From the NCBI GenBank assembly GCA_003150315.1, contig QAML01000020.1, forward strand, positions 1 to 24,441: a stretch of DNA of 24,441 nucleotides, read 5' to 3'. The notes under the pieces were generated by a model. The model searched no databases, was not told the DNA's origin, and saw nothing but the letters and a program-made list of their open reading frames with translations. The stretch is from Prevotellaceae bacterium (GTDB lineage Bacteria > Bacteroidota > Bacteroidia > Bacteroidales > Bacteroidaceae). The position numbers and the translations under genes are program-made. Shown piece by piece: positions 1 to 22,266 of the stretch; position 1 is the stretch's first letter, and every line of letters starts with the position of its first letter.

Positions 1-69
1 TGAAAAATACAAGGCATTTATTTCAAAATATAAGGCACATATTTTAAAATATGTGCCTTATATTTTTTG
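1..69. repeat. Intergenic phased-box repeat, copy 1 (left end outside window)
   Basis: This is one of four related intergenic elements in the window. AAGGCA boxes lie at 11-16 (forward), 32-37 (forward) and 54-59 (reverse, TGCCTT). A first box would be expected about 21 bp to the left, outside the window. The second visible box and the reverse box form a perfect 42-bp palindrome at 25-66 centred on TTTTAAAA, and the right end runs into six T residues. The spacing matches the complete copies. The function is unknown; it could be a protein-binding array, a small mobile repeat or a hairpin terminator. Confidence 0.85.
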
Positions 70-103
70 CGTTTGCAAGTGTCTGTAGTACAATGTCATA
101 CAA

Positions 104-132
104 ACGCCGTTTTTTCGACCCGAAAACGGCGT
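104..132. other. GC-rich hairpin
   Basis: A perfect 10-bp inverted repeat, ACGCCGTTTT at 104-113 and AAAACGGCGT at 123-132, has a 9-nt loop. It has no strong T-run on the plus strand and only TTTGTAT on the minus side, so it is a weak terminator candidate. It may end transcription of a gene left of the window, or act as a structural element upstream of the glycosidase promoter. Confidence 0.45.
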
Positions 133-212
133 GGAAAATTGTCTGATTTATAAATAACTGATGAATTTCCGGCAAAAAAGATGTAGAAAGATGTCTTGTG
201 TCGGTATTTTAT

Positions 213-220
213 TACATTTG
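213..220 (+). promoter_or_regulatory. Probable -7 element for the glycosidase gene
   Basis: TACATTTG matches the Bacteroidota -7 consensus TAnnTTTG. No convincing -33 TTTG lies at the expected distance, so the call rests on one box. Transcription would begin near 226 and give a leader of about 69 nt. Confidence 0.45.
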
Positions 221-232
221 CAGTGCAAAAGC

Positions 233-262
233 CATTTCCTGTTATGGAAATGATTTTATTTT
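233..262 (+). other. Leader hairpin followed by T-rich run
   Basis: CATTTCC at 233-239 and GGAAATG at 246-252 form a perfect 7-bp stem with a 6-nt loop. The T-rich stretch ATTTTATTTT follows. It lies inside the predicted leader of the glycosidase mRNA, so it could act as an attenuator or a 5' stabilising hairpin. The stem is AT-rich and short, so the effect may be slight. Confidence 0.35.
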
Positions 263-294
263 GTGTGGAATAAACCAATTTACTTATAAAAGAT

Positions 295-1938
295 ATGAAG
301 CGAACAATTATTGCATTAGCGGCATTAATGGCATTTTCCATGTCTGATATTAATGCCGATGATGTTTTTAAGCAAGAACGCAGCCGATGGCTCGAAATTG
401 CAGAACAATCCAAGCCCAAACTGCATAGAACTGTAGTTTATCCCAAATCCATTGTCAAGGCTGTTAAAGACAATTCGGCATTCCAAGGTTGGAGATACGA
501 ACCTACAGGAAAACCGGAGGATGTTTTCAAAAGCAATTTCAGACAGGTAAGAAGTGTAACCTTTGATCTTGGCAGACATGCGGTGGGATATTTGTCATTA
601 CATTTCAAAACTCTCACAAATTGTCAGGATGCTCCCATAAGAGTTAAGGTGTTTTGTGGAGAGTTACCGGCAGAGTTAAACACGGATATGCCTGAAAATT
701 GGACTGCAGGCTTGAGTCGTGCTTGGATGCAGGATGAAATTTTGACGGTGGAGCAGATGGATACAACGGTAACTCTTGCAAGGCGTGTGGCATGTCGTTA
801 TATTAAGATTGAATTATTGGCGGAATCATACGGATTTGACTTTGCTCTTGACGGATTATCGTTTACGGCGGAAACTTCTGCTCAAACCGACCGTTTAAGT
901 CTGCCGCAGACATGTTCTCCTCAAATACGTAAGATACGCGAAGTGGCTGTCAACACTCTGCAAGAGTGTATGCAAACGGTATATGAGGACGGACCTAAGC
1001 GCGATCGCCGTCTGTGGCTTGGAGATTTGTATTTGGAATCACTGGCAAACATGTACTCTTTTCAAACACACGATTTGACTCGTCGCTGCTTGTATCTGTT
1101 TGCGGGACTGTCAGCAGAAAATGGGATTATATATGCCAACAGTTTTGAAACTCCCAAACCACATCCGCAATATGCCTGCTATTTATTACCGTATAACCTG
1201 CTGTTTATTTCCACATTGCTTGAATATGTCAATGCTACGGGAGATATGAAAACCGGCAGAGATTTGTGGAAAGTGGGGAAGCGGCAGTTGGACGATGCAA
1301 TAGAATATGTTGATGCGAATGGCATGTTTAATACGGCTCATCGCCCGACATGGCTGTTTTTTGACTGGCGTGAAGGATTGGATGTCAATGTTTGCATGCA
1401 GGGTGCTATGATATTCGCTCTAAATCAAATGACAGAACTCACGCAACGTTTGGGAATAAAAGAAGATGTGAGCAAATGGAAAAAACTTGAGACGCTCATG
1501 AAGAATTACGCTCGCAAAAATATGTATAATTCGTCCCGTCGTGTTTTCCTATCCGGCAAGGATAATCAGTTTTCTGTGCTTAGTCAGGTTTGGATGATCA
1601 AATCCGGTGTCATTTTCGGAAAGAAAGCTCAAACCGCTCTCCGTTCTGCTTTGGCTTCTGCAGAATCTGTAAAACCGGGTACGCCTTATGCAACGCATTA
1701 TGTTATTGATGCAATGCTTATAAGCGGCATGAAAGACGAAGCGCGAAAGTATCTTGAAGACTATTGGGGCGGAATGGTAAGAAAAGGAGCTGATACATTC
1801 TGGGAGGCATATGATCCTAATGATGATTTTATCTCGCCTTATAATTTTTCTCCTCTAAACAGCGCCTGCCATGCGTGGAGTTGCACTCCCGTATATTTCA
1901 TACACAAATATCCCGAAGTATTTCAAAAGGGAAATTAA
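295..1938 (+). CDS. Secreted GH78-like six-hairpin glycosidase (alpha-L-rhamnosidase-related)
   Basis: The 547-residue product starts with a signal peptide (residues 1 to about 21: KR, a hydrophobic core, then NADDV), so it is probably periplasmic. The middle carries DGPKRDRRLWLGD at 232-244. This aligns with the GH78 alpha-L-rhamnosidase motif DCPQRERxGWTGD, whose acidic residues bind sugar and act as general acid. The usual acid Glu is Asp here (D237). Near the C-terminus TFWE ends in E504, in the place of the catalytic base, followed by a typical segment (NSACHAWSCTPVYF). An N-terminal beta-sandwich-like region (about 75-195) precedes the (alpha/alpha)6 domain, but the protein is shorter than classical multi-domain GH78 enzymes. 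No SusC/SusD-type genes are visible beside it. The substrate is unknown, rhamnose specificity is not proven, and a divergent clan member or weak enzyme is possible. A strong terminator follows. Confidence 0.7.
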   Translation: MKRTIIALAALMAFSMSDINADDVFKQERSRWLEIAEQSKPKLHRTVVYPKSIVKAVKDNSAFQGWRYEPTGKPEDVFKSNFRQVRSVTFDLGRHAVGYLSLHFKTLTNCQDAPIRVKVFCGELPAELNTDMPENWTAGLSRAWMQDEILTVEQMDTTVTLARRVACRYIKIELLAESYGFDFALDGLSFTAETSAQTDRLSLPQTCSPQIRKIREVAVNTLQECMQTVYEDGPKRDRRLWLGDLYLESLANMYSFQTHDLTRRCLYLFAGLSAENGIIYANSFETPKPHPQYACYLLPYNLLFISTLLEYVNATGDMKTGRDLWKVGKRQLDDAIEYVDANGMFNTAHRPTWLFFDWREGLDVNVCMQGAMIFALNQMTELTQRLGIKEDVSKWKKLETLMKNYARKNMYNSSRRVFLSGKDNQFSVLSQVWMIKSGVIFGKKAQTALRSALASAESVKPGTPYATHYVIDAMLISGMKDEARKYLEDYWGGMVRKGADTFWEAYDPNDDFISPYNFSPLNSACHAWSCTPVYFIHKYPEVFQKGN

Positions 1939-1954
1939 GAAAAAGCATGCCGAA

Positions 1955-1990
1955 AGAAGGCGGTTACGAATTTCGTAACCGCCTTCTTTT
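1955..1990 (+). terminator. Terminator after the glycosidase gene
   Basis: A 16-base inverted repeat (1955-1970 with 1972-1987, GC-rich core GGCGGTTACG) is followed by TTTATTTT on the plus strand. It lies between two convergent genes. On the minus strand it is followed only by TTTCGG, so it would end the export gene less efficiently. Confidence 0.9.
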
Positions 1991-2006
1991 ATTTTATATA
2001 ATAAGT

Positions 2007-4535
2007 TTATTTCGAAAGATTTGCTATCGTAGCAATCATTGTGGCAATTGAAGCAAGTCCGTTTCCTATAGACAGCCATTGCGCAATGGCATTTCCGTTG
2101 GCTTTGGGCTTGCTCGGCACAACTATTTCACAACCCGGTTCGGGTTTAACACCATTTCCTGCTTTTGCCACCATGCCATTCATATATACTATATAGGTAT
2201 GGCTCTTCTTGGAACGCAGTCCGTATCCTCCGGCTTGGTTAACGTATTTTCTAATGCTGTTCCCTTTATGATACGGAACAGTATTGGGATACATAACATT
2301 TCCGGAAACTCTTACAGTATTGGTGTATTGCGGAATTTGAAGCACATCTCCTTCGCGAAGCACTATATCATATTCACTTCCCGGATTGGCAAGTGCTTTG
2401 TCAAGCTCTATTCCGACACTATATGTATCGCCTAATTTCACTTTGGCAAGCGAGATGGAGTCTTCTCCCGTAGCAGATTGCTGCGCAACCTTTAGAACAG
2501 ATTCCATACGGGCACGCTCTGCACTGTTCATCTTTCTTTCAAGTCTTGCTCCGCGAACATATCCCATTTTAGTTACACCGCCGGCTTTATTTACAAGGTC
2601 GCTCAGACGTTCTGTCTTTTTAGCCAATGTATAAACTCCGCGATATGTAATTTCTCCGTCAACGTAAACATTTTGCTGTACATTGTATTCCGGACTTATT
2701 CTTACATATACTTCGTCGTAAGGTTTAAGCTTGAAAGAACTGTCTCCATTGATTACGAAACCATCTTTAAGGGAAAATGTAAAAGTTTGAGCCAACTGGT
2801 CGCTGCTTTCTGTGGATGCAGGATTGTTTATTCGGCGTGAAACATCAATTTTAGCCGTGGAAGCGTTGTCTTTTAAGCCTCCTGCCTGCAGAATAAAGTC
2901 TTCCAGCGTTTCGTTTTCTGCATATTCGTAAGTTCCGGGGTAGAAAACTTCTCCGAATATAGATATTTTGCGGTCTTTGATTCTGTCTTTTACAGAAGGA
3001 ACAAACAAAACATCGCCATTTCTAATGGGAATATCAGCAACTTTGCCGCTTAAGATTCCTTCTATGTCCACACTCTTTGCTTCAAGTGTGCGGTCAGCTT
3101 TAAGACGATGAAGAACTGCGTGAGTCTTGAAAGCGTCTTCGGTAACTCCTGATGCAGCTTCAATCAGTTGCTTAATCGTTGTAATATTTGTTCCAACGTT
3201 ATACATGCCGGGACGGAACACTGCTCCTTTTACTTCTACCATATTGGAGTAGCGATTTATTACGCTGTCAACTGTTACAGAATCGGCATCTGCCAATCGG
3301 AATTCATTTGTTTCAAATTCATTTACATTAAAAACGGAATATTCAGCTCCGTCCTTGCGCATAACTCTTACCGACTTTTTATAAGCATCTCCTGTAAATC
3401 CTCCAGAATATCTTAAAAGAGATGCAAGACTTTCGTTTCGTTTCATTTCGTAATACATCGGACGCTTTACTTTTCCGCTAATATTTACGAGACAATCGTA
3501 AGGACCAACAACGATAACGTCTCCGTCGTTCATGCGAATATTTCCGCTCATTTTTCCGTTGAGTATATAATCATATATATCAACGTTGCTCATGAGTTTT
3601 CCCTTTCTGTAAACTTTTATGTCTCGAAGAGTTCCTATATCGCTTATGCCTCCCGCCATGTAAAGCGCATGAAATACAGAAGCAAATGCAGAGAGTGTGT
3701 AAGTTCCGGGAGCTTTTACTTCACCCATGACGTTTATTGTGATTGTTCTGCTTTGCCCCAAAGTCATTTTTATTTTAGACGAACGGTATCTGCTGCCGAG
3801 TCTGGAACGTATTAATGCGTTTGCTTTTGAGATACTAAGCCCGCCTATTTCAATAGGTCCGAAACCTTCTACGGTGATAGTTCCGTCGGGAGACACTTCT
3901 TGATTCAGAGATTTTTGTGAAGCTCCCCAAATATCAATTATAACATTGTCGCCTGGACCAACAACGTAGTTCTGAGGCGTGGCAATATTCATGTTGGGTT
4001 CAAAACTAAGCAACTTGTTGTTGAAAATGTCGCGTCCGAAAACCTTTTTACGGTATTTCGCGAGACGTTCTTCTACAAGTAAATCAACACTGTCAAGGTA
4101 TAATTTTCCAAGTTCCGTGGACATTTCTACATATTCGGGATCGTTTTCGTCATAAGTATGTTCGTAGTCCACTTTGTTGGTGTTGTAAGATTCTTTACGT
4201 CCGTTGGTCATGAGTTCTCCATCATCATCAGCTTTACCTTTTTTGCTTTTGGCGTTTTTATTTCGCAAACGACTTTGAGCGTATGTGGAATTTCCCAAGT
4301 CTTTTGCGTTCATGACTTCGTTACCTTCCTGTATTTTCTTTTGTATGGAACGAATCTGGTCAATCTTCACACCTCTTTGCATAAGGTGAGTAACGATTTG
4401 CGAACGTGGTGTTCCGCGTTCCTGTTCGCGAACCACGTAATCTATTATTTGTTTGTCCGTCATTCCGCTTTGAGCCATTATTTCTATGGCTGAAGAGAAT
4501 GTGAATATTGCCAATAAGAAAAGAATCTTTTTCAT
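2007..4535 (-). CDS. SLBB-domain polysaccharide export protein (Wza-like)
   Basis: The 842-residue protein probably forms or gates an outer-membrane channel for capsule or exopolysaccharide export. Residues 1 to about 21 are a signal peptide ending IMAQSG. No lipobox cysteine is present, unlike Wza. A helical, charged region (25-130) leads to a polysaccharide-export domain with YVVGPGDNVIIDIWG at 190-204. Six SLBB repeats follow, starting near G271, G354, G437, G528, G627 and G745, each with a G-x-V/I-x-x-P/R-x-x-Y-like turn. The last 28 residues form a glycine- and alanine-rich hydrophobic helix, matching in position the C-terminal helix that builds the alpha-barrel in Wza. No Wzc, glycosyltransferase or flippase gene is adjacent, so it is an orphan here. 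The ATG at 4535 gives a good signal peptide. No clear promoter was found between it and recA. Confidence 0.85.
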   Translation of the reverse strand: MKKILFLLAIFTFSSAIEIMAQSGMTDKQIIDYVVREQERGTPRSQIVTHLMQRGVKIDQIRSIQKKIQEGNEVMNAKDLGNSTYAQSRLRNKNAKSKKGKADDDGELMTNGRKESYNTNKVDYEHTYDENDPEYVEMSTELGKLYLDSVDLLVEERLAKYRKKVFGRDIFNNKLLSFEPNMNIATPQNYVVGPGDNVIIDIWGASQKSLNQEVSPDGTITVEGFGPIEIGGLSISKANALIRSRLGSRYRSSKIKMTLGQSRTITINVMGEVKAPGTYTLSAFASVFHALYMAGGISDIGTLRDIKVYRKGKLMSNVDIYDYILNGKMSGNIRMNDGDVIVVGPYDCLVNISGKVKRPMYYEMKRNESLASLLRYSGGFTGDAYKKSVRVMRKDGAEYSVFNVNEFETNEFRLADADSVTVDSVINRYSNMVEVKGAVFRPGMYNVGTNITTIKQLIEAASGVTEDAFKTHAVLHRLKADRTLEAKSVDIEGILSGKVADIPIRNGDVLFVPSVKDRIKDRKISIFGEVFYPGTYEYAENETLEDFILQAGGLKDNASTAKIDVSRRINNPASTESSDQLAQTFTFSLKDGFVINGDSSFKLKPYDEVYVRISPEYNVQQNVYVDGEITYRGVYTLAKKTERLSDLVNKAGGVTKMGYVRGARLERKMNSAERARMESVLKVAQQSATGEDSISLAKVKLGDTYSVGIELDKALANPGSEYDIVLREGDVLQIPQYTNTVRVSGNVMYPNTVPYHKGNSIRKYVNQAGGYGLRSKKSHTYIVYMNGMVAKAGNGVKPEPGCEIVVPSKPKANGNAIAQWLSIGNGLASIATMIATIANLSK

Positions 4536-4634
4536 TTGCGGTATGGTAGATTTACATCAATTGTGCTTTAATTTGTTTATTTATAACGTACCCAAGTCTT
4601 TATTATTATTTCGGATAAGACTGATTTCAATAAG

Positions 4635-4678
4635 AAAGTCCGGAACTGTGAAGTGTTTGCCACAGATTCGGACTTTTT
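4635..4678 (-). terminator. recA terminator
   Basis: AAGTCCG at 4636-4642 pairs with CGGACTT at 4669-4675. A 3-nt internal mismatch and five more pairs (CTGTG with CACAG) follow. On the minus strand the stem ends in GGACTTTCTTATT. It sits 18 bp beyond the recA stop codon, and the T-run on the opposite strand makes it potentially bidirectional. Confidence 0.75.
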
Positions 4679-4695
4679 ATTAGCGTATTTGTGTT

Positions 4696-5763
4696 TTACT
4701 CTTCGGCGTTTTCAACATCGTTCATGTCGTCTTCGGCTTTGGGATTGCCGCGTAGGAATTCAACAACTTTGTTTTCCACATCCTGACGGAACTCCGGGTT
4801 ATCTTTCAGAAGATTCATCACAGAGTCGCGACCCTGACCTATTTTGGTATCGCCATAGCTGAACCACGAACCGCTCTTTTTAATTATATCGTTTTCTATA
4901 GCCACATCTATGATTTCGCCAATGCGCGAAATTCCTTCGCCGAAAATCATATCGAATTTACAAACACGGAATGGGGGAGCAACTTTATTCTTCACGATCT
5001 TCACGCGTACCTTGTTTCCGTAAACCTTATCGCCGGTTTTCAGAGCTTCCGACTTACGTATGTCCAAACGAACCGAAGCGTAGAATTTCAGAGCGTTACC
5101 ACCGGTTGTGGTTTCAGGATTGCCGTACATAACTCCGATTTTCTCACGCAACTGATTTATGAAAATACACGTGGTTTTTGTTTTGCTTATTACAGAAGTG
5201 AGTTTTCTGAGAGCCTGACTCATGAGTCTTGCCTGCAGACCAACTTTGTTTTCGCCCATAACTCCTTCTATTTCGGCTTTAGGAGTTAGCGCAGCCACAG
5301 AATCTATAACAATAAGATCAATAGCCGCTGAGCGAATTAATTGGTCGGCAATATCAAGAGCCTGTTCACCGTTATCGGGTTGCGAAACAAGCAAATCGTC
5401 AACTTTAACTCCGAGCTTTGCTGCATAAAAACGGTCAAAAGCGTGCTCTGCGTCTATAAAAGCGGCTATTCCTCCCTGTTTTTGAGTCTCTGCTATGGCA
5501 TGGAGGGCAAGTGTTGTCTTACCGGAACTTTCAGGACCGAAAATTTCAACAATTCTTCCGCGCGGATAACCGCCTACGCCAAGAGCAGCATCAAGCAAAA
5601 TGCTACCGCTCGGTATTACCTCTACTTTTTCTATATGCTCATCTCCAAGGCGCATTATAGTGCCTTTGCCAAAGTCCTTTTCTATTTTGGCCATTGCAGC
5701 ATTCAGAGCTTTCAGTTTCTCTGAATTTGCAGCAGGCGTTTCTTCGTTAATTTTTTTCACCAT
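4696..5763 (-). CDS. recA: RecA recombinase
   Basis: RecA is the 355-residue ATP-dependent strand-exchange protein of homologous recombination and the co-protease of the SOS response. The Walker A motif GPESSGKTT is at 76-84. The family features [25 protein letters not shown], the ATP-sensing loop [29 protein letters not shown] and an acidic C-terminal tail ([11 protein letters not shown]) are all present. The start at 5763 (MVKKINEE) is preferred over an in-frame ATG at 5829. The longer version adds 22 residues foreign to RecA, and the promoter -7 box (5808-5815) lies inside that extension. recA is flanked by its own promoter and terminator and is probably monocistronic. The leader carries a sequence matching one box of the intergenic repeat family. 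Confidence 0.98.
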
Positions 5764-5807
5764 GATATATCGGCTTTGTGCCTTGTATGTTTTGTTAGTT
5801 AATAGTA

Positions 5808-5838
5808 CAAAGTTAAGAATAAAATTCAATATGCCAAA
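5808..5838 (-). promoter_or_regulatory. recA promoter (Bacteroidota type)
   Basis: On the minus strand TTTG (5835-5838) and TAACTTTG (5808-5815) are separated by 19 bp, an excellent match to the -33/-7 consensus. The predicted start is near 5802, giving a leader of about 39 nt. TTAAC occurs twice, 14 bp apart, across the -7 box. No known LexA-type palindrome was recognised. Confidence 0.85.
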
Positions 5839-5950
5839 CTGAAAATATGTAAGGAGCGAATAAAGGGTTTAGATAAACAGATCATGGAAAAATTGTAAGC
5901 CGGAAAAACTACGTAAAAGCGATTTTTTTTAGAAACAGATTAGACATGTA

Positions 5951-6039
5951 AAAAAACATAAGGCACTTAATTAAAAATACAAGCCATATATTTTAAAATA
6001 TGTGCCTTGTATTTTAAAATATATGGCTTATATTTTTTG
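5951..6039. repeat. Intergenic phased-box repeat, copy 2
   Basis: Four boxes are present: AAGGCA 5960-5965 (A, forward), AAGCCA 5981-5986 (B, forward), TGCCTT 6003-6008 (C, reverse) and TGGCTT 6024-6029 (D, reverse). A to B and C to D are each 21 bp. B and D form an exact 20-bp inverted repeat (5981-6000 with 6010-6029) enclosing box C. Box A (AAGGCAC) is complementary to box C. The ends are roughly inverted, with an A-run on the left and a T-run on the right. The element lies between the 3' end of glnN and the recA promoter. The function is unknown. Confidence 0.9.
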
Positions 6040-6115
6040 TTGTCTTAAGCATTTGAAACTGCGCGACTTATAAAAGCCTCTAAAAACCTTGAAAAACAGA
6101 GCTAAAATCGCTTGT

Positions 6116-6163
6116 AAAAAAACGGCGGTTACACTACGCATAAAACGTAAGCTGCAACCGCCG
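6116..6163 (-). terminator. Terminator of the gltB-gltD-glnN operon
   Basis: On the minus strand a GC-rich stem of 8 perfect pairs (CGGCGGTT with AACCGCCG), extended by a G-U pair and two more pairs, is followed by seven T residues (A-run 6116-6122 on the plus strand). It lies about 50 bp beyond the glnN stop codon. Confidence 0.9.
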
Positions 6164-6214
6164 CACGACACAGAAATATTACGATAGAGTAATGTGCCAG
6201 ATAGTTAAAACAAA

Positions 6215-8404
6215 TTAGCGTATGAACAGGAGTTCGCGATATTTCGGAAGCTCCCACATCTTGTCGCTTACAATCAACTCAAGTTTGTCAATGTGATAGC
6301 GGATGTCATCGAACATAGGTACAACTGTGTCATGATATGCCACGGCTTTTTCGCGGTTATCCTCAATGCGGTTTGCCACTTTGCGTGCCTCGATCATTGC
6401 ATGAACTTTATCTTCGATATATGCAGTATGTTTCGAAATTTTATCTATGAGCTCCAAATCTTTCTTTGAGTCTTCCGCATAGCGGTCTGCAGGGAGAATC
6501 TGTTTCAACTTGAATGCGTTGTCAACAAGTTGGGTCTGATATTGTGTGGCAACAGGTATAATCATGCTCATGGCAAGGTCGCCAAGCACACGGCTTTCTA
6601 TCTGCACTTTCTTGGTGTATGTTTCCCATTTCACTTCGTTACGTGCTTCAAGCTCTTTCTTGGTCATTACGCCCGTGCTCTCAAACATATTAACGGAAGA
6701 TTCGGAAAGATAATTATCATAAATAACGGGGACGGAACTTTCGCAGTCCAATCCGCGACGTTTGGCTTCTTCAACCCATTCATCGCTATATCCATTGCCT
6801 TCGAAATGTATGGCTTTGGTTTCCTTGATGATTTCCTTGAGAACTTCAAGTATGGCTGCGCTCTTTTCTTCGCCTTGGGCAATGCGGGCATCAACAGCTT
6901 TCTTAAAGTTTTCCAACTGTTCTGCAACTGCAGTGTTGAGAACTATCATGGCAGCGGCACAGTTTGCCTGTGAACCAACAGCACGGAATTCAAAACGGTT
7001 ACCGGTAAATGCGAACGGAGAAGTGCGGTTACGGTCTGTATTGTCAACAAGCAGTTCGGGAATGCTCGGTATGTCCATCTTCATTCCGTGCTTCTTGCTG
7101 AAATTGGTCATATCCTCGTCATCGCTCTTTTCGATATGATCGAGAATACTTGTGAGCTGCTCGCCAATGAATGAAGAAATGATTGCGGGAGGTGCTTCGT
7201 TTGCGCCAAGACGATGTGCGTTGGAAGCACTCGATATACTTGCCTTCAAGAGTCCGTTGTGATGATAAACAGCGGCAAGCGTATTTACAATGAAAGTAAC
7301 GAATCGCAAGTTGTCGATGTCGGTTTTACCCGGCGACATAAGTCCAATACCCGTATCTGTTCCGAGCGACCAGTTGTTGTGTTTTCCGCTACCATTAATG
7401 CCCTTGAACGGCTTTTCGTGAAGCAGAACACGGAAGCCGTGGCGACGTGCGATGTTGCGGATAAGTGCCATGATAAGCATGTTGTGGTCGTTGGCAAGAT
7501 TGCACTCTTCAAACACAGGTGCCAATTCAAACTGGTTGGGGGCAACTTCGTTATGACGAGTTTTAACGGGAATTCCAAGTTTCAAAGCTTCAATTTCCAA
7601 TTCCTTCATGAATTGAACAACACGAGGAGGAATGGCTCCGAAGTAATGGTCTTCCAACTGCTGGTTCTTTGAACTTTCGTGTCCCATCAGTGTGCGTCCT
7701 GTAAGAAGAAGGTCGGGGCGTGCAGCGTATAAGCCTTCGTCTACAAGAAAATACTCCTGTTCCCAACCAAGATAAGAATAAACTTTCTTGACATCAGGAT
7801 TGAAATAATGGCAAACGTCAACTGCTGCTTTGTTAACTGCGCGAAGAGCTTTCAATAGAGGAGCTTTGTAGTCAAGACATTCTCCGGTATATGCCACAAA
7901 GATTGTGGGGATGTAAAGAGTATCATCAACAATGAAAGCCGGTGAAGAAGGATCCCATGCAGAATATCCGCGTGCTTCGAAAGTATTACGTATTCCACCA
8001 CTTGGGAAAGAAGAAGCATCGGGTTCCTGCTGAACGAGAAGTTTGCCTGTAAATTCTTCTATAACACCGCCACGTCCGTCCGGTTCGACAAAGGCATCGT
8101 GCTTTTCGGCTGTACCTTCTGTAAGCGGAGAGAACCAATGGGTGTAGTGTGTGGCTTTCATTTCAATAGCCCAACGTTTCATGCCTTCAGCCACAGCATC
8201 TGCAATGGCGCGGTCTAAGACGCCGCCGTTTTCAATAGTGTCAGTAAGCTTGCGGAAAATTTCTTTGGGAAGATAACGACGCATCTTCTCTTTGTTGAAC
8301 ACGTTCTTTCCGAAATATTCGGAAGGACGTTCCGCAGGCTGTTCGACTGCTACCGGCTTTTTGCTGAAAGCCTCTTCTACTACTTTGAATCTCAATGTTG
8401 ACAT
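6215..8404 (-). CDS. glnN: Type III glutamine synthetase
   Basis: GlnN makes glutamine from glutamate, ammonia and ATP in the cytoplasm. At 729 residues it has the size of the GSIII class, which is much longer than GSI/GSII and typical of Bacteroidota and cyanobacteria. Visible motifs include NEVAPNQFELAPVFEECN, LLHEKPFKGINGSGKHNNWS (glutamate/ATP site), LGANEAPPAI and FEFRAVGSQANCAAAM, all characteristic of GSIII. It is the last gene of the gltB-gltD-glnN run, 33 bp after gltD, with no separate TAnnTTTG promoter in that gap. A strong terminator follows. It is therefore likely co-expressed with glutamate synthase as a complete GS-GOGAT cycle. The start at 8404 gives MSTLRFKVVEEAF, a usual GSIII N-terminus. 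Confidence 0.97.
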   Translation of the reverse strand: MSTLRFKVVEEAFSKKPVAVEQPAERPSEYFGKNVFNKEKMRRYLPKEIFRKLTDTIENGGVLDRAIADAVAEGMKRWAIEMKATHYTHWFSPLTEGTAEKHDAFVEPDGRGGVIEEFTGKLLVQQEPDASSFPSGGIRNTFEARGYSAWDPSSPAFIVDDTLYIPTIFVAYTGECLDYKAPLLKALRAVNKAAVDVCHYFNPDVKKVYSYLGWEQEYFLVDEGLYAARPDLLLTGRTLMGHESSKNQQLEDHYFGAIPPRVVQFMKELEIEALKLGIPVKTRHNEVAPNQFELAPVFEECNLANDHNMLIMALIRNIARRHGFRVLLHEKPFKGINGSGKHNNWSLGTDTGIGLMSPGKTDIDNLRFVTFIVNTLAAVYHHNGLLKASISSASNAHRLGANEAPPAIISSFIGEQLTSILDHIEKSDDEDMTNFSKKHGMKMDIPSIPELLVDNTDRNRTSPFAFTGNRFEFRAVGSQANCAAAMIVLNTAVAEQLENFKKAVDARIAQGEEKSAAILEVLKEIIKETKAIHFEGNGYSDEWVEEAKRRGLDCESSVPVIYDNYLSESSVNMFESTGVMTKKELEARNEVKWETYTKKVQIESRVLGDLAMSMIIPVATQYQTQLVDNAFKLKQILPADRYAEDSKKDLELIDKISKHTAYIEDKVHAMIEARKVANRIEDNREKAVAYHDTVVPMFDDIRYHIDKLELIVSDKMWELPKYRELLFIR

Positions 8405-14395: not shown

Positions 14396-14425
14396 CAAAG
14401 ATACGGATTTGCTTGCAACTGCAAA
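14396..14425 (-). promoter_or_regulatory. Promoter of the gltB-gltD-glnN operon
   Basis: On the minus strand TTTG (14422-14425) and TATCTTTG (14396-14403) are separated by 18 bp, matching the Bacteroidota -33/-7 promoter. The predicted start is near 14390, a leader of about 26 nt. No sigma-54 motif or recognisable nitrogen-regulator site was seen. Confidence 0.85.
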
Positions 14426-14610: not shown

Positions 14611-14699
14611 AAGAAATATAAGGCACTTAATAAAAAATACAAGGCATATATTTTAAAATAAGTGCCTTGTATTTCAAAATATATGCCTTATGTTTTTTG
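14611..14699. repeat. Intergenic phased-box repeat, copy 3
   Basis: Boxes are at 14620-14625 (A, AAGGCA), 14641-14646 (B, AAGGCA), 14663-14668 (C, TGCCTT) and 14684-14689 (D, TGCCTT), with the same spacing as copy 2. B and D match over 20 bp with one mismatch (14641-14660 with 14670-14689). A and C share AAGGCACTTA exactly in inverted sense. Where copy 2 has AAGCCA in both B and D, this copy has AAGGCA in both. It lies between divergent promoters, where no terminator is needed. Confidence 0.9.
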
Positions 14700-15968: not shown

Positions 15969-15990
15969 AAAGTTTGCCCGATAACGTTTG
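15952..15990 (+). terminator. Terminator after the GNAT gene, shared with lysA
   Basis: TATCGGGCAAAC (15952-15963) and GTTTGCCCGATA (15972-15983) form a perfect 12-bp stem with an 8-nt loop. The left arm includes the end of the GNAT coding sequence. AACGTTTGTTTT follows on the plus strand. It sits between convergent genes and could also end the lysA transcript. Confidence 0.85.
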
Positions 15991-15992
15991 TT

Positions 15993-17138
15993 TTAGAGCA
16001 GGTATCCTTTTATTAACGGACGGGCGTTATATGTAGAAGCCATAACTTCTCCATAAGCTCCCGCAGAATGTATAGAAAGAATATTACCTCGTTTTGTAGG
16101 AGACAACGGACGGTCTTTTGCAAAGACATCACTGCTTTCGCAAATAGGTCCGACAATGTCATATTTCTCTTTTGCTACATCTTGGTTAGATAGATTCTCT
16201 ATATCGTGATAAGCTCCATATAGTGCAGGGCGGACCAAGTCGGTAAATCCTGCATCAACAATTACGAATTGTTTGTGCGCTGTCTGTTTGGTGTAAAGCA
16301 CTTTCGTTATCAAATTGCCGCATTGTGCAACAACCGAACGACCGAGTTCGAAATGGATTTTTGTGTCTTTCGAAACTTTCAAACAGTTGCGAAAAGTGTT
16401 GAAATATCCATTGAAATCGGGTATGGGATTAGCTTTCGGATTGTCATAGTCAATGCCCAAACCTCCGCCAACATCAATCATCTCGCACTTTATACCATGT
16501 GATTCGAGTTTGTCGGTTAGTTTGTTAATAACCTTGCAAAGATTCTCGAAGCATGTATATTCTGTGATTTGTGAACCAATATGGAACTGCAAACCGCGAA
16601 ATTCAAGTCCTTTCATCTCATGAATGGCTTTAACTGTAGTCAAGACATCTTCGAGTGCAATACCAAACTTGTTTTCTTCTGTTCCGGTAGTGATTTTTTC
16701 GTGAGTGTGTGCGTCAACGTTGGGATTTACACGTATGGCAACGGGAGCAACAGTATTCATGCGCGACGCAATTTCGTTTATAACCTCTATTTCCTGTATG
16801 CTCTCAACGTTCAAACTGTATATGCCGTTTTTAATGGCAATTTCAATTTCTTCGTCTCTCTTTCCAACACCGGCAAAAACAATCTTAGCGGGATTGAAAC
16901 CGTTGTTCACGGCTTTTTCAATCTCTCCACCACTCACACAATCCGCTCCAAGGTTGTATGAGCTGATAAATTTAAGAACATCAGGATTATCATTAGCCTT
17001 AATGGCGTAGTGAATAATGAAATTTTTGTCTTTTTCCGTAGCTTGCGCTATGGCATCAAGCGTTCTTTTAAGAATGTCTTTTCTGTATAAATAATATGGC
17101 GTGCGGAAATCCGGCACGCCTTTTATTAGCTCTTGCAT
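15993..17138 (-). CDS. lysA: Diaminopimelate decarboxylase
   Basis: LysA removes CO2 from meso-diaminopimelate to give L-lysine, using PLP. The 381-residue protein is a fold-type III enzyme. The PLP lysine is K47 in HYAIKAN, HIGSQI and GGGLGIDY bind the cofactor phosphate, and PICESSDVFAKDR supplies the catalytic Cys at the partner-subunit active site. SAGAYGEVMASTYNARP closes the C-terminus. It is somewhat shorter than the usual 400-420 residues. It follows lysC by 5 bp and is the last gene of the seven-gene run. Related carboxynorspermidine decarboxylases are an alternative, but the CESSD motif and lysC neighbour favour LysA. Confidence 0.95.
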   Translation of the reverse strand: MQELIKGVPDFRTPYYLYRKDILKRTLDAIAQATEKDKNFIIHYAIKANDNPDVLKFISSYNLGADCVSGGEIEKAVNNGFNPAKIVFAGVGKRDEEIEIAIKNGIYSLNVESIQEIEVINEIASRMNTVAPVAIRVNPNVDAHTHEKITTGTEENKFGIALEDVLTTVKAIHEMKGLEFRGLQFHIGSQITEYTCFENLCKVINKLTDKLESHGIKCEMIDVGGGLGIDYDNPKANPIPDFNGYFNTFRNCLKVSKDTKIHFELGRSVVAQCGNLITKVLYTKQTAHKQFVIVDAGFTDLVRPALYGAYHDIENLSNQDVAKEKYDIVGPICESSDVFAKDRPLSPTKRGNILSIHSAGAYGEVMASTYNARPLIKGYLL

Positions 17139-17143
17139 CAGTT

Positions 17144-18469
17144 CTATGCTTTTGGGTCGTTAAACAGTTTCTTGCTCAATTCCTGCAACGCTTTTTCTTT
17201 GTCGCACGAACGAATCAAAAATGAAATATTGTGGAAACTACCGCCATAGGAAATCATTCTTACGGGAACGGAAGCCATGGCATCTGTTGTGAGACTTTCG
17301 TAACCGATGTTGCCCCAACGTAAATCGCCAACCACACAAATTATACACATGTCTCGGTCTATGTCGACAGTTCCGTATTTCTTGAGTTCTCCGATTATTT
17401 CATTCAAATGAGTAGGATTGTCTATACTCATAGAAACACCGACTTCGGAAGTGGTTATCATATCAATGCTCGTGTTGAACGTATCAAAGATATTGAAAAC
17501 CTTGCTCATGAAACCCGAGGCAAGAAGCATTCGGGACGAAACGATTCTTATGGCAGTGATTCCGTCTTTTGCGGCAATGGCTTTAATCTTACCGCTCTCC
17601 ATTTCGTTGTTTATGATAGTTCCCTTTGCCGATGGGTCGAGAGTATTAAGAAGTCTTACGGGGATTCCGGCAAATTTGGCAGGAAGAATGCAGGTGGGGT
17701 GGAGTATTTTTGCGCCGAAATAAGCAAGTTCTGCTGCCTCCTCAAAATTAAGTTGATCAACAGGTTTTGTACCTTCTACGAAACGCGGATCATTATTATG
17801 CATTCCGTCAATATCCGTCCAGATTTGTATTTCTTCTGCTTTGATTGCCGCTCCAATCAGCGAGGCTGTATAGTCGGAACCGCCGCGTTGCAGGTTGTCG
17901 ATATAACCATCTGCGTTGCGGCAAATGAATCCCTGAGTTATATATATATTGTAATCGGGTTCTTTTTTGAGAATCTCGTTAAGACGTTTGGAGATCTGAA
18001 GTTCGTCTGGCTCTTTGTCTTTGTTGGTACTCATAAAATCAAGAGCAGAAAGCAGGATAACATTCTTGCCAAGTTCTTTCAGGTAATTTGTCATCATGTT
18101 TGTGCTGATAACTTCGCCCTGCGCAAGAATTTCTTTGTCTACATTTTCGTCATGTTTCTTTTGAGTGAGTTTATGAAGATACCCAAACTCTTCCGTAATA
18201 AAATCGTCTGTTATTTTGCGATATTTCTCTGTTGAATAAAGTTCGCTTACGTGTTTGTGATAAACACTTTCAAGACGGCTTATTACATTGTTTGCACCAA
18301 GAGAATTCTCTTTGTTTAAGTAATCAGTTATCTCTACAAGAGTGTTTGTTGTTCCCGACATTGCGGAAAGAACAACAAATTTCTGCTCGTCAGAAGAAAT
18401 CAGATTCGCAACGTTTTTTATTCTTTGTGGCGACCCTACCGAAGTGCCGCCGAATTTCATTATTTTCAT
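17144..18469 (-). CDS. lysC: Aspartate kinase, monofunctional
   Basis: LysC phosphorylates aspartate, the first step toward lysine, diaminopimelate, methionine and threonine. The 441-residue protein begins MKIMKFGGTSVGS, the ATP-binding signature, and has GFICRNADGYIDNLQRGGSD and WTDIDGMHNNDPR of the kinase domain. Two ACT domains (about 300-441), including SEVGVSMSIDN, suggest feedback control by an end product such as lysine. No homoserine dehydrogenase domain is fused. It starts 3 bp after the ABC ATPase stop codon and ends 5 bp before lysA, so translational coupling is likely. A second ATG three codons downstream is possible but would trim the signature strand. Confidence 0.96.
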   Translation of the reverse strand: MKIMKFGGTSVGSPQRIKNVANLISSDEQKFVVLSAMSGTTNTLVEITDYLNKENSLGANNVISRLESVYHKHVSELYSTEKYRKITDDFITEEFGYLHKLTQKKHDENVDKEILAQGEVISTNMMTNYLKELGKNVILLSALDFMSTNKDKEPDELQISKRLNEILKKEPDYNIYITQGFICRNADGYIDNLQRGGSDYTASLIGAAIKAEEIQIWTDIDGMHNNDPRFVEGTKPVDQLNFEEAAELAYFGAKILHPTCILPAKFAGIPVRLLNTLDPSAKGTIINNEMESGKIKAIAAKDGITAIRIVSSRMLLASGFMSKVFNIFDTFNTSIDMITTSEVGVSMSIDNPTHLNEIIGELKKYGTVDIDRDMCIICVVGDLRWGNIGYESLTTDAMASVPVRMISYGGSFHNISFLIRSCDKEKALQELSKKLFNDPKA

Positions 18470-18472
18470 CAG

Positions 18473-19213
18473 TTATTCTGTAATATCAGTATTGTTATTT
18501 GTAGGAGTATATTCGTCTGTGGTATTATGAAACGTTCCTTCTTTACATTGGAAAACTTTTCCTGTGAAAGTTTTCACCAAGTCAAGATTGTGGGTACTCA
18601 TAATTACAGCTGCTCCGCTCTCACTTATCTTTCCTAAAAGGCGCGTGATATTTATAGCGGCATTCTTGTCAAGATTTCCCGTAGGCTCATCGGCGAGAAT
18701 AACTTTGGGATTATTGATTATTGCCCGGGCAATTGCAGCCCGTTGTTGTTCGCCTCCTGAAAGTTCGTTAGGATATTTGTCGCTTTTATCTTCGAGTTCC
18801 ACAAGTTTTAGCGTTTCGTCAATCTTTTCATTGATTTCGTTTTTTTGTTTTGCACCCGTTGCGCGAAGAATAAAAGCAAGATTTTCTCTTATGGTCAGAT
18901 TTCCTAATAGTTTATAATCTTGAAAGATTATTCCAAGTTGCTTTCTAAGCTCTGGAATCTGTTTCCTGCGTATAGTTGAAAGATCATATCCGAGTACAAA
19001 TCCTTTTCCTGCCGAAATGTCAAGATCTTTATAAATGGTGCGCAGAATAGAACTTTTACCCGAGCCAACATGCCCCGTCAAAAAAATGAAATCTTGAGGA
19101 TAAACAGAAAATGTAACATCTTTAATGATTTCATTTCCGTCGTGGCTTATGACTACTCCTTCATAGGATATAAGAGCATTGTCTTTTTCCGGAGATTGTG
19201 CGATGTTGTCCAT
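18473..19213 (-). CDS. ftsE: FtsE-like ABC transporter ATPase
   Basis: The 246-residue ABC ATPase resembles FtsE, which with FtsX couples the division machinery to cell-wall hydrolases at the inner membrane. Walker A is GHVGSGKS (47-54), the Q-loop lies in [10 protein letters not shown], the signature is [15 protein letters not shown], Walker B is [12 protein letters not shown] and the switch histidine is in STHNLDLV. LolD/MacB-type ATPases are close relatives, so FtsE is the best but not the only reading. No ftsX lies in the window. The start at 19213 ([11 protein letters not shown]) is preferred; an in-frame ATG at 19282 would overlap hisIE by 50 bp and add an unrelated leader peptide. It sits 19 bp after hisIE and 3 bp before lysC. 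Confidence 0.8.
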
Positions 19214-19232
19214 GATATATTTTGAAAGTAGG

Positions 19233-19850
19233 TTAGTGTTTGTGCCAACCGGGCTGATGACGTTCTGCAAGTTCTGCCGCAACTTGCTCTATTCGCAGAC
19301 CTTTAGAAGTCAACAAAACAACAAGATGATAGAACATGTCGGAGCATTCGTATATGAGTCTGTCATCATTGCCGCTTACAGCTTCTATAACGGCTTCGAG
19401 AGCTTCTTCTCCAACTTTTTGTGCCATGCGGTTTGTTCCGTCTTTGAAAAGACTGGTAGTATATGACTTTTCGGGCATTTCTTCATGCCGTTTGTTAATG
19501 AAATCCTGGAGCTCGGAAAGAAAAAGCAGAGGATTTCGTTTGTTTTCTTCTCCCCAACAAGTGTCTGTACCTGTGTGGCAAGTAGGTCCATGAGGAATAA
19601 CTTTTACGAGCAGTGTGTCATTATCGCAATCGGGCTTCATGCTCACAAGTTCGAGATAATTTCCACTTGTTTCACCTTTTGTCCAAAGACATTTGCGGGA
19701 ACGGCTGTAGAATGTTACCCGTTTTGTGGCAAGTGTTTTTTGATATGCTTCCTCGTTCATGAATCCGAGCATAAGCACATTCTTGGTTATGCTGTCTTGT
19801 ATTATTGCCGGTACAAGACCGTTCATTTTTTCGAAATCTATATTCATCAT
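19233..19850 (-). CDS. hisIE: Bifunctional phosphoribosyl-AMP cyclohydrolase / phosphoribosyl-ATP pyrophosphatase
   Basis: The fusion performs steps two and three of histidine synthesis: the HisE part cleaves PR-ATP to PR-AMP and the HisI part opens the ring. The HisI domain occupies about 1-108, with metal ligands in KPDCDND and HGPTCHTGTDTC. The HisE domain (about 110-205) carries KVGEEALEAVIEAV and LIYECSDMFYHLVVLL. The 205-residue length is normal for the fused form. It starts 4 bp after hisF. Two ATGs (19850 and 19847) are adjacent; the first was taken. Part of the run hisH-hisA-hisF-hisIE. Confidence 0.97.
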   Translation of the reverse strand: MMNIDFEKMNGLVPAIIQDSITKNVLMLGFMNEEAYQKTLATKRVTFYSRSRKCLWTKGETSGNYLELVSMKPDCDNDTLLVKVIPHGPTCHTGTDTCWGEENKRNPLLFLSELQDFINKRHEEMPEKSYTTSLFKDGTNRMAQKVGEEALEAVIEAVSGNDDRLIYECSDMFYHLVVLLTSKGLRIEQVAAELAERHQPGWHKH

Positions 19851-19854
19851 TTTA

Positions 19855-20616
19855 TTATTGTAGTCTTACGTCTATGTTTTCTTTTTGCAGATATTGTTTA
19901 AGCTCGGGAATTTTAATTTCGCCATAGTGGAATACACTTGCCGCAAGAGCTGCATCTGCACGACCTTTTACAAAAGCATCGCGAAAGTCTTTTTTCTTTC
20001 CGGCTCCTCCCGAAGCTATCAACGGGATGCCTACGCTTTCGCTTATTTTGCAAAGAGCTTCATTGGCAAATCCTTCTTTTGTACCGTCGTGATTCATGCT
20101 CGTAAACAAAATCTCTCCTGCACCGCGATTATAACCTTCGCGTGCCCAATCAAAAAGTGTGTGTGCCGTAGGAGTTCTGCCTCCGTTAAGATAGCAATGC
20201 CATTCTCCGTTTTCTTCTTTTTTTGCGTCTATGGCAAGTACGCATATCTGTGAGCCGAAATGCGATGCAATTTCGTCTATAAGCGCAGGTGTACGCAGCG
20301 CGGCAGAATTAACAGCCACCTTGTCTGCTCCTGCTTCAAGTAAACGTTCTACATCGTTAAGAGTACTCACACCTCCTCCCACGGTAAAAGGAATGGAAAG
20401 TTCTGAAGCCACTCTTCTTACCATTTCTGTAAAAGTTTTTCTTCCTTCAACGCTTGCCGTTATGTCGAGAAAGACGAGCTCGTCTGCCATTTGTTCGGAG
20501 TATATTTTTCCCATTTCCACTGGATCTCCGGCATCACGGAGACCAAGGAAATTTATACCTTTGACAGTTCGTCCGTCTTTTACATCAAGACACGGAATTA
20601 TGCGTTTAGCCAACAT
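19855..20616 (-). CDS. hisF: Imidazole glycerol phosphate synthase cyclase subunit
   Basis: HisF is the (beta/alpha)8 cyclase that uses ammonia from HisH to convert PRFAR into imidazole glycerol phosphate and AICAR. The 253-residue protein has both catalytic aspartates in their usual places, D11 (CLDVKDGR) and D130 (VLAIDAK). Phosphate-binding loops are seen in [10 protein letters not shown] and [12 protein letters not shown]. Its start overlaps the end of hisA by 11 bp, which suggests translational coupling, and hisIE follows after 4 bp. Confidence 0.98.
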
Positions 20617-21349
20617 GGTTTTTGCTTTGTTTGAATTTTACAGCAACTTGTTTCAAGTCGATTGTGCCTTCGTATATGGCTCTGCCGAAAACAACAGAGT
20701 CAATTCCTGCATCATTAAGTGCTTCAATATCGTTTATGTCTTTCACACCGCCGCTTGCCGTTAATTTGCAGTCGGGGAAGACAGACATGATTTCTTTATA
20801 AAGTTGTATATTCGGACCACACAGCATTCCATCGCGGGAAATGTCCGTGCAGAGAACGTTGCGCACTCCCAAAGACCAATATCTTTTCAGCAAATCATTA
20901 ATACTCATTCCCGAGTCTTCGGTCCAACCGCTTGTACGAACTTTGCCGTCTCGCACATCTGCCGATATAATGAATTTGTCTGCGCCATATTTTTCAATCC
21001 AACTGGCAACTTTTTTGTAATTGTTGACTGCCATGCTTCCAATACTCACTGCTTGGGCTCCACATTGGAAAACGGCAGAAATATCTTCGTCGGTTTTTAT
21101 TCCTCCGCCGAAATCCACAAAAAGTTTTGTGCTTTTTGTTATGCTTTCGAGCACGGAAAGATTTACCGGTTTACCTTGTTTTGCTCCGTCTAAATCTACA
21201 AGATGCAATCTTGTATAGCCGATTTTTTCAAAATCTTGTGCCAAATCGACAGGTGATGCCGAATAGTCGGTCTTTTTTGCGTAATCGCCTTGACACAGTC
21301 TTACACAGTGTCCACCTATTATATCTATAGCAGGAATTGGCTGTATCAT
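20606..21349 (-). CDS. hisA: ProFAR isomerase (1-(5-phosphoribosyl)-5-[(5-phosphoribosylamino)methylideneamino]imidazole-4-carboxamide isomerase)
   Basis: HisA carries out the ring-opening Amadori isomerisation that makes PRFAR, the substrate of HisF/HisH. The 247-residue (beta/alpha)8 protein has the catalytic pair at D9 ([13 protein letters not shown]) and D131 (IISADVRDG). The two-fold repeated phosphate sites are [13 protein letters not shown] and [12 protein letters not shown]. It starts 3 bp after hisH and overlaps hisF by 11 bp. A PriA-like dual role in tryptophan synthesis is not indicated. Confidence 0.97.
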
Positions 21350-21352
21350 CTT

Positions 21353-21946
21353 TTATAGTTCAAGGAAATTTTTGAGTATTAATTCTCCCGTTTTTCCACT
21401 TTTCTCGGGATGAAATTGAACTGCCATGAAATTGTCATGCTCAATTGAAGCACTAAAATTTACAGTGTAGTTGCATTGCGAAGTTGTAAACTTGTTGCAT
21501 GGCACATAATAGCTGTGCACGAAATACACATAACTTTCCTCATCAATTCCTTTGAATAGTGCGCTGTTCATATTGCTTATTGAATTCCAACCCATGTGTG
21601 GGATTTTTTCATTGTTTTTTGGCAGAAATCGAGTTACTTTAACTTCGGGAAAAATCCCGAGACATTTTACGCCTCCGCCCTCTTCTGAATAATCGCACAT
21701 GAGTTGCATTCCGATGCAAATGCCTAAAACCGGCTGTTTGAACGAGCGTATAACGTTGTCCATGCCTGTTTTACAGAGATAGTCCATGGTTACGGCAGCT
21801 TCGCCTTGTCCCGGTATGATTATATGGTCGGCTTTCGACAACAATTGAACATCATCGGTTACGATGCTGTCCACTCCCAAACGGGTCAGAGCCGATTTAA
21901 CCGAAAAAATGTTGCCTGCCGGATATTTTAGAATAGCTGTTGACAT
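21353..21946 (-). CDS. hisH: Imidazole glycerol phosphate synthase glutaminase subunit
   Basis: HisH is a class I glutamine amidotransferase that feeds ammonia to HisF. With the ATG at 21946 it has 197 residues, the usual family length, and begins STAILKYPAGNIFSV. The nucleophile is C77 in GICIGMQLM and the other triad members are H179 and E181 in VQFHPEKSG. The frame stays open upstream to 22228, but that part has no family resemblance, and a TAnnTTTG promoter (21978-21985) lies inside it, so the short start is right. It is the first gene of the seven-gene his-ftsE-lys run. Confidence 0.96.
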   Translation of the reverse strand: MSTAILKYPAGNIFSVKSALTRLGVDSIVTDDVQLLSKADHIIIPGQGEAAVTMDYLCKTGMDNVIRSFKQPVLGICIGMQLMCDYSEEGGGVKCLGIFPEVKVTRFLPKNNEKIPHMGWNSISNMNSALFKGIDEESYVYFVHSYYVPCNKFTTSQCNYTVNFSASIEHDNFMAVQFHPEKSGKTGELILKNFLEL

Positions 21947-21961
21947 ATAAAAATGTTTGCC

Positions 21962-21985
21962 TTGCAATATGCTATTGCAAATATA
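21962..21985 (-). promoter_or_regulatory. Promoter of the his-ftsE-lys run with overlapping inverted repeat
   Basis: On the minus strand TATATTTG (21978-21985) matches the -7 element; no clear TTTG was seen at -33. The predicted start is near 21972, a leader of about 26 nt. A perfect inverted repeat, TTGCAATA (21962-21969) and TATTGCAA (21973-21980) with a 3-nt spacer, overlaps the -7 box and start. It could be an operator or an initial RNA hairpin. Confidence 0.65.
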
Positions 21986-22176
21986 GTAAATATAAGCGTA
22001 ATTCTCTATTGAGCTGCACTTAAATAGAATGCAATTTGTTTTGAAAACCGTTCGAATGCTCGTTTTACTGCCATATAGCAAACTTTGTGTATCAATAAAA
22101 GACCATAAACTGATGAAATGTAAGCGTTGATATAGGGATGGCAAAGGACAACTTTTTCCATGCTTTTGAAGTGTAG

Positions 22177-22266
22177 AAAAACATAAGGCATCTCCTAAAA
22201 AATATAAGCCATATATTTTAAAATACAAGGCACCTATTTTAAAATATATGGCTTATATTTTTTAGG
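22177..22266. repeat. Intergenic phased-box repeat, copy 4 (central box inverted)
   Basis: Boxes are AAGGCA 22185-22190 (A, forward), AAGCCA 22206-22211 (B, forward), AAGGCA 22227-22232 (C, forward) and TGGCTT 22249-22254 (D, reverse). A-B and B-C are 21 bp and B-D is 43 bp, as in copies 2 and 3, but box C points the other way. B and D lie in a perfect 31-bp inverted repeat (22194-22224 with 22236-22266) enclosing an 11-nt spacer, which holds most of box C. The element ends about 80 bp upstream of the dnaK sigma-54-type promoter. Confidence 0.9.

Follow-up and report, generated by a model that had tools for sequence, protein, structure and literature searches.

The window, that is the whole stretch of 24,441 nucleotides that was analysed, contains four AT-rich elements (E1–E4) with a length of about 88 bp, one in each of its four intergenic regions longer than 200 bp. 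The elements are composed of AAGGCA/AAGCCA boxes (AAGSCA) on either strand. E1 (1..68, + strand, model score 76.1 bits) is cut at its 5' end by the window edge and shows boxes at 11 and 32 (forward) and 54 (reverse). E2 (5951..6038, + strand, 105 bits) has boxes at 5960 and 5981 (forward) and 6003 and 6024 (reverse), and E3 (14611..14698, + strand, 103.4 bits) has them at 14620 and 14641 (forward) and 14663 and 14684 (reverse). In E4 (22176..22263, + strand, 103.2 bits) three forward boxes at 22185, 22206 and 22227 are followed by a reverse box at 22249. Four boxes per element, as the sequence-only reading had it, are thus present in E2–E4, while three are visible in the truncated E1.

Neighbouring boxes on the same strand are 21 bp apart and forward-to-reverse neighbours 22 bp apart, and the four elements were aligned over 90 columns without a gap. 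Mismatches over these 90 positions numbered 9 for E2/E3, 16 for E2/E4 and 21 for E3/E4; the 40-bp flanks matched at 12–15 of 40 positions and are unrelated. The pattern AAGSCANNTATTTYRAAATANNTGSCTT was matched exactly four times in the window, once in each element, and with up to three mismatches eight times, always within elements (0 in 100 shuffles). An element family with these boxes at 21-bp pitch, as originally proposed, was confirmed by the box positions, the gap-free alignment and the shuffles. The third box (box 2, counting from 0) is forward in E1 and E4 but backward in E2 and E3, which makes the box order forward, forward, either, reverse. E2–E4 are bounded by terminal inverted repeats about 15 bp long that differ at 2–3 positions, and the internal units, of 21 bp, repeat the same sequence; the element ends lie near AAAAAAYATAAGSCA. 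Since the spacers are well conserved among the window copies, their spacing alone could reflect recent common descent. The 21-bp lattice of the window was not detected by an exact 9-mer repeat scan.

All four elements are extragenic. The statement that they occur only between genes holds for genes as read; one mechanical ORF with a TTG start (21353-22228) reaches into E4, on the upstream side of position 21946, where hisH probably starts. The proposed common orientation proved softer, because the elements are near-palindromic: the + strand scored higher (76–105 bits), but the opposite strand still reached 58–84 bits with a model built from the + strand. Candidate promoters of the Bacteroidetes type (TTTG, a spacer and TAnnTTTG), each a consensus match only, lie on the - strand at 5808..5838 (TTTG-19-TAnnTTTG), between E2 and position 5763, where recA starts, and at 14396..14425 (TTTG-18-TAnnTTTG), between E3 and position 14364, where gltB starts, so that the recA promoter match is downstream of E2 and the gltB match downstream of E3.

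The exact core was found in eight stretches of an 84,980-species collection (Neobacillus, Psychrobacillus, Alkalithermobacter, two Gastranaerophilales, a Bacteroidales MAG, a Cytophagales MAG and Myroides), each with a single palindromic match; these were rejected as further family members, being lone hairpins that lack the array. No exact core was found in viral contigs. BLAST with 191 bp around E2 returned one plasmid record and twelve phage records, all of them short weak matches. A covariance model was applied to 364 Bacteroidales genomes, with 12 candidates scored in each, and matched two, referred to here as G124 and G039; at that depth, clear lattice copies were present in one of the 364, G124. 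R2 at 1e-4 gave no match in three other genomes of the family of G124, and over 334 genomes (mostly the same set as the 364) it yielded G124 and one weak match (7.6e-4) in a further genome, G110. The fixed ACGG box pair occurred once in G043. LysC identity reached at most 68% among 393 Bacteroidales and 69% among 60 genomes of one genus, and in one genus none of 37 genomes reached the LysC threshold of 1e-190. With the GH78-type protein, three of 399 genomes of one family passed 1e-205 (best 58%). Glutamine synthetase was 79% identical to Bacteroides and 78% to Parabacteroides, and the top matches, among the best 120 listed, were at 81–90%. These protein comparisons suggest that the window comes from a member of the Bacteroidales.

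In G124, a distantly related Bacteroidales genome, the boxes have diverged (ACGGYNTATC), and the 21-bp lattice and the inversion phase are as in the window. When the gap between same-strand boxes was left free from 1 to 30 over the whole genome, 48 matches were obtained and all 48 had a gap of 11, that is exactly 21 bp; the fixed-gap count was also 48 and the reversed-pattern control gave 0. The copies are related to one another, so these spacings are not 48 independent events. In the 370 kb examined, all 72 neighbour distances of up to 120 bp, inverted pairs included, fell on the lattice. Over 65 spacers, 149 of 655 letters departed from the consensus, and the expectation that spacing is kept while sequence varies was borne out. 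The suggested count of intergenic versus coding copies in related Bacteroidales also favoured an array: of 30 clusters, 26 avoid ORFs of at least 80 aa, against 15% of random windows. These 26 clusters lie between convergent (9), codirectional (13) and divergent genes (3), with one unresolved. They thus show no tie to promoters; placement between divergent promoters, noted for two window copies, stands for E3 and E4 by gene direction but is not a rule in G124.

The box order of E4 is present in 10 of the 30 clusters; seven others (six with three boxes, one with five) are compatible with it and 13 are incompatible. Alignment A2 was made from 15 of the 19 first-listed G124 places, those matching exactly 90 nt, and it overstates gaplessness because the four places of other lengths were excluded; the counts of 48 pairs and 72 distances are independent of it. 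Three of the 36 places grouped from 65 matches (L061, L064 and L066) appear to be other hairpins or another box family. For the shift comparison, the window was represented by three of its four elements and G124 by 10 of 15 rows, five rows of other box order being excluded. Agreement was 59.0% at shift 0, 59.6% at shift -21 and 56.6% at shift +21, below 50% off the lattice and 30% (sd 1.3) for shuffled rows; the reverse complement gave 59.0%, an equally good match. Given the best shift of -21 and the equal score of the reverse complement, the comparison demonstrates likeness of the units, not homology or orientation of whole elements.

Other box families were also encountered. A second family in G124 (ATACGTAY) has 49 of its 51 neighbour distances of up to 120 bp at 22, 44 or 66 bp. 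Its spacers are only 44% alike, which is near-random, so recent duplication can hardly account for this pitch. G110 contains one intergenic tandem array, 7.4 units long at a period of 21 bp (76% matches, 0% indels), whose box is again different and unrelated; as it is the single array in the 127 kb examined, dispersal in that genome is not demonstrated. In G039 the AAGGCA box belongs to a dispersed inverted repeat (three complete copies of 61–67 bp and one partial), in which AAGGCA and TGCCTT are 39 and 45 bp apart, off the lattice; the lattice is therefore not a rule wherever this box occurs. On the lattice reading, the G039 repeat and the G110 array pull in opposite directions.

We read the elements as REP/BIME-like dispersed repeats acting as predicted protein-binding arrays on double-stranded DNA, rather than as terminators or structured RNA. 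That these non-coding repeats work through about four boxes arrayed on a 21-bp lattice, serving as a protein docking surface on one face, we consider about equally apt to be right or wrong. G124 keeps this layout although its letters differ, which suggests docking by an unrecognised protein on one face of the arrays. Such a putative protein, sequence-specific and probably cooperative, would bind the boxes from one side of the helix, and with inverted boxes kept in register every subunit would still face that side. Whole elements would be copied around the genome, in the manner of REP/BIME units or MITEs, by a putative enzyme. As the window elements lie upstream of genes, they may, speculatively, be architectural or insulating patches.

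Helically phased operator or iteron arrays have boxes one or two turns apart that are bound on one face, and are confined to a single locus; the window elements differ in being dispersed and in carrying inversions in register. Dispersed palindromes of bacteria are best understood as RAYT-linked REPs. REP/BIME sequences and REPINs are dispersed extragenic palindromic units with alternating orientation and regular spacing, in the available part of the account (PMC2817692). The window elements are likewise dispersed, extragenic and palindromic, and their regularly spaced units alternate in orientation. They differ in their high AT content, their 21-bp box lattice and the lack of a common GTAG/CGTC tag: E1–E3 have none within 5-bp margins, and the GTAG/CTAC at the left edge of E4 (GTAG at 22173-22176) is unshared. 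Nor was an intact RAYT linked to the elements found in G124. In copy number, four elements in the 24-kb window stand beside 48 box pairs in G124.

A possible though somewhat unlikely alternative is a purely selfish family of miniature mobile repeats, akin to MITEs or REPINs, whose boxes are transposase recognition sites only and have no host function. The alike interiors within unrelated flanks, the terminal inverted repeats, the intergenic bias, the patchy distribution among genomes and the G039 repeats, which share the box and differ in geometry, all fit such an origin. Against it, E2–E4 have no consistent target-site duplication (longest flanking direct repeats of 3, 5 and 5 bp at differing offsets), and no transposase was found among the nine window proteins with Pfam or recognised in the ORF list. 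G124 has a single Y1_Tnp match, which scores weakly (25.9 bits), is interrupted by an internal stop and adjoins a different repeat, in a 3.2-kb locus from which the ACGG-type box is absent. Among Bacteroidales repeats, the BrickBuilt MITEs of P. gingivalis have 23-nt direct repeats, a leader, a tail and GAGACC-like terminal repeats over 84–991 nt (PMC4596501). They too are intergenic, repeat-built and dispersed, but these structural parts, so far as the available part of that source describes them, were not seen in the window elements. TnpA-REP subclass 2.6 of Bacteroidetes, as partially available, resembles the elements in its atypical repeated structures, which flank it and have copies elsewhere in the genomes (PMC6006769), and differs in that the Y1_Tnp match of G124 adjoins another repeat, not these boxes. 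At the capsule locus of P. gingivalis, another Bacteroidales, a large inverted repeat of 77 bp, studied with the HU protein PG0121 (PMC3969353), marks the 5' end of an operon; it occupies a single locus, and no box lattice is described in the part of the source available.

That the elements are bidirectional intrinsic terminators or insulators is improbable. All four fold below all 200 shuffles on both strands (z -5.8 to -11.0) and finish in a T-run on the + strand. A hairpin core with 28-nt arms and a 9-nt loop containing box 2 lies at 5973..6037 in E2 (same columns 3-67 in E1, 14633-14697 in E3 and 22198-22262 in E4); minimum-energy folds use these columns partly and vary between copies. In a terminator scan of positions 1-20000, E1 and E2 were listed as terminator-like but E3 was not, and divergent genes flank E3 and E4, so that the earlier objection to a plain terminator stands. 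The stems are AT-rich, those of E1 and E2 having 3–4 G-C pairs against 8 in the GC-rich terminator-like hairpin that stands between the GH78 and SLBB genes (1952-1990), and box 0, at its distance of 21 bp, would be superfluous in a terminator.

Very improbable is a neutral minisatellite with template-switch inversions, in which the pitch is mere unit length: the tandem-like units, the near-perfect palindromes and the plain tandem repeat of G110 agree with it, but no G124 spacing is off the lattice despite the 149 spacer substitutions, the ATACGTAY spacers are near-random, and box 2 of G124 carries its own sequence (ACGGCGTATC in 9 of 10 compared copies).

A structured RNA (leader, riboswitch or small RNA) is hardly credible: the folds are stable, the window and G124 copies together exceed all 500 shuffles in paired-cell share and covariation score, and pairing is far above slid versions in both, but two further measures of that test are unremarkable (196 and 58 of 500), pairing within 11 G124 copies equals that of shuffles (80.3% vs 79.6%, 125 of 500) without covariation, Rfam at gathering score gave no match in the window and only three tRNA matches in 10 G124 loci, and E2 and E3 are located 5' of the recA and gltB promoter matches. 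Where a protein-binding array or a folded nucleic acid had been envisaged, the array is supported by the spacing and intergenic bias in G124, and the folded RNA is disfavoured by the pairing within that genome.

No description of such an element was found in the literature searched, outside which most subscription journals lay. Under the reading as protein-binding arrays, the conserved property is geometry, namely two-turn spacing with in-register inversion, and the boxes are free to change across lineages; this points to an unrecognised DNA-binding partner. It is a rather unlikely, broader proposal that chromosomes of some Bacteroidales bear a dispersed, lineage-specific 'box code' of several unrelated box families, each kept on a one- or two-turn helical lattice in intergenic DNA; its readers would be fast-evolving proteins of a nucleoid or partition type, from a family not yet known.

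The four elements of the window (24,441 bp, 42% GC), located at 1-68 (E1, cut at its 5' side by the window edge), 5951-6038 (E2), 14611-14698 (E3) and 22176-22263 (E4), consisted of AAGSCA boxes, numbered 0 to 3, at a pitch of 21 bp, or 22 bp across an inversion. They were aligned without gaps over 90 columns. The sequence-only reading of four box-array elements at 21-bp pitch was right. Because the interiors are alike and the flanks unrelated, whole elements look to have been copied around; no consistent target duplication was found at their flanks. Window position 1 falls within E1; should this be the contig end, a contig broken at a repeat would be in keeping with an element present in many copies.

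Pfam identified recA, glutamine synthetase III, an SLBB export protein, a GH78-type protein, a UPF0029 protein, a GNAT protein, an ABC ATPase, a hisH-like amidotransferase and dnaK in the window, while gltB/gltD, lysC/lysA and the remaining his genes were assigned by reading translations. Four stretches between genes exceed 200 bp, and every one contained a single element: 1-294 (truncated at the window edge), 5771-6214, 14365-14822 and, according to the gene list, 21989-22437, which would begin at 21947 with a hisH start at 21946. The next longest, 4536-4695 (160 bp), was without one. Matches to the Bacteroidetes-type promoter consensus were located between element and gene for recA and gltB, so that the elements probably lie outside those leaders; the same search gave no match for the other genes neighbouring window elements. 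Off the lattice, at 5777-5788, a single 12-base stretch, TGTGCCTTGTAT, repeats part of E2 exactly; it is flanked by the promoter match of recA on one side and the start of recA on the other. Upstream of dnaK, TGGCACGCTCATTGC at 22349-22363 (+), the sole TGGCAC-5-TTGC match in the window, is close to the sigma-54 -24/-12 consensus.

The exact core pattern gave no array anywhere in the genome contig collection. A covariance model of the four window elements, with 12 candidates scored per genome, matched at 1e-4 in 2 of 364 Bacteroidales genomes, G039 and the distant G124, whose LysC is 62% identical to that of the window. A separate search of G124, in which 150 candidates were scored, returned 65 matches up to E = 1.

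The G124 boxes read ACGGYNTATC and share the lattice and inversion phase of the window, a forward-reverse distance of 18 bp for a 10-base box being equivalent to 22 bp for a 6-base box, with the box at offset 7 of the 21-bp unit in both. Exact boxes formed 30 clusters of at least two members; ten had the forward-forward-forward-reverse order of E4, six three-box clusters and one five-box cluster were compatible with it, and 13 were not. Agreement between three window rows and ten G124 rows was 59.0% at shift 0, 59.6% at -21, 56.6% at +21 and again 59.0% for the reverse complement at its lattice positions, against less than 50% off the lattice and 30% for shuffled rows. Since the shifted and reverse-complemented alignments match comparably, the likeness shown, as judged from these alignments, covers the unit and its phase, not whole-element homology.

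When the gap between same-strand boxes was left free (1-30), all 48 matches across the whole G124 genome had a gap of 11, equalling the fixed-gap count; across 393 genomes the fixed-gap pattern occurred 48 times in G124 and once in G043, and the reversed control pattern gave 0 among the matches listed. All 72 neighbour distances of up to 120 bp in 370 kb of G124 were on the lattice, although the copies are related to one another and the spacings are not independent events. The 65 spacers differed from consensus at 149 of 655 letters. The conserved property in G124 is spacing.

Twenty-six of the 30 clusters lay outside ORFs of at least 80 aa, compared with 15% of random windows from the same sequence (543/3,683); the other four overlapped ORFs of 81-134 aa. 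Two window copies had been noted to lie between divergent promoters. By gene direction those two cases stand, but divergent placement is not a rule, because the 26 G124 contexts were codirectional (13), convergent (9), divergent (3) or unresolved (1).

In a second G124 family, ATACGTAY, 49 of 51 distances between neighbours were 22, 44 or 66 bp, and likeness among the spacers was 44%. Its boxes lay within 500 bp of 27 of the 30 ACGG clusters, a rate biased by stretches mostly picked around those clusters; 200 kb of one contig held 6 ACGG and 9 ATACGTAY boxes. At many G124 loci, L039 and L061 among them, the ACGG boxes are accompanied by ATACGTAY boxes on a 22-bp lattice and by AAAGGCATT/AACGTATTT boxes spaced mostly 21-22 bp apart. 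Short-box arrays at 11-bp pitch (GGAGCATACGT, CTGTGGAGC, TACTCCTCCGA) were seen in G222, of the same family as G124 (L103, about 375-425, 1171-1257 and 7512-7556). A tandem array between two ORFs of G110 (L153, 10701-10855; period 21, 7.4 copies, 76% matches, 0% indels) has a further, GTAGCGNTAC-like box, and no second array with such a box was found in 127 kb of that genome.

TnpA-REP genes with atypical repeats are recorded in Bacteroidetes (PMC6006769), so the window's elements may be linked to such a gene in their own genome. The sole Y1_Tnp match in G124 scored 25.9 bits and carries a stop, and its 3.2-kb locus was free of ACGG-type boxes. This interrupted Y1_Tnp (RAYT-like) gene lies beside a repeat containing GGTTGGATCCACGTATCCAACC (L079, about 1060-1230 and 1330-1690).

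The dispersed repeat of G039 comprised three complete inverted repeats, two of 61 bp and one of 67 bp, plus a partial copy; the arms contain TATAAGGCATAT. It reads AACCATATAAGGCATATAAG...CTTATATGCCTTATATGGTT, including AAGGCA (L026, L030, L032), and the L030 copy has an ORF on either side, one of 370 aa and the other of 400 aa. Where both were intact, AAGGCA and TGCCTT were 39 or 45 bp apart, off the lattice; the repeat has the window's box in common but not its geometry.

A protein-binding array or a folded nucleic acid had been proposed. Window elements gave strong single-strand folds on both strands; boxes 1 and 3 lie in columns able to form a hairpin with 28-nt arms, whose 9-nt loop contains box 2 (in either orientation) and which leaves box 0 outside. 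Boxes 1 and 3 change their middle base in concert across the four copies, but that number is too small: 73 of 500 shuffles attained the observed covariation score. In the combined window and G124 set, which mixes two lineages with different boxes, paired cells and covariation exceeded 500 of 500 shuffles, and two further measures did not stand out. Pairing in 11 G124 copies was far above slid versions, as expected of any palindrome, but not above shuffles (80.3% vs 79.6%, 125/500), which counts against the folded-RNA part of the proposal. Because of this, and because the box 0-box 1 spacing is maintained despite box 0 lying outside the hairpin, putative recognition as double-stranded DNA is favoured. 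With the box in another geometry in G039 among the reasons for restraint, an array bound by a putative protein is the best-supported reading of these elements, and we consider its chances about even.
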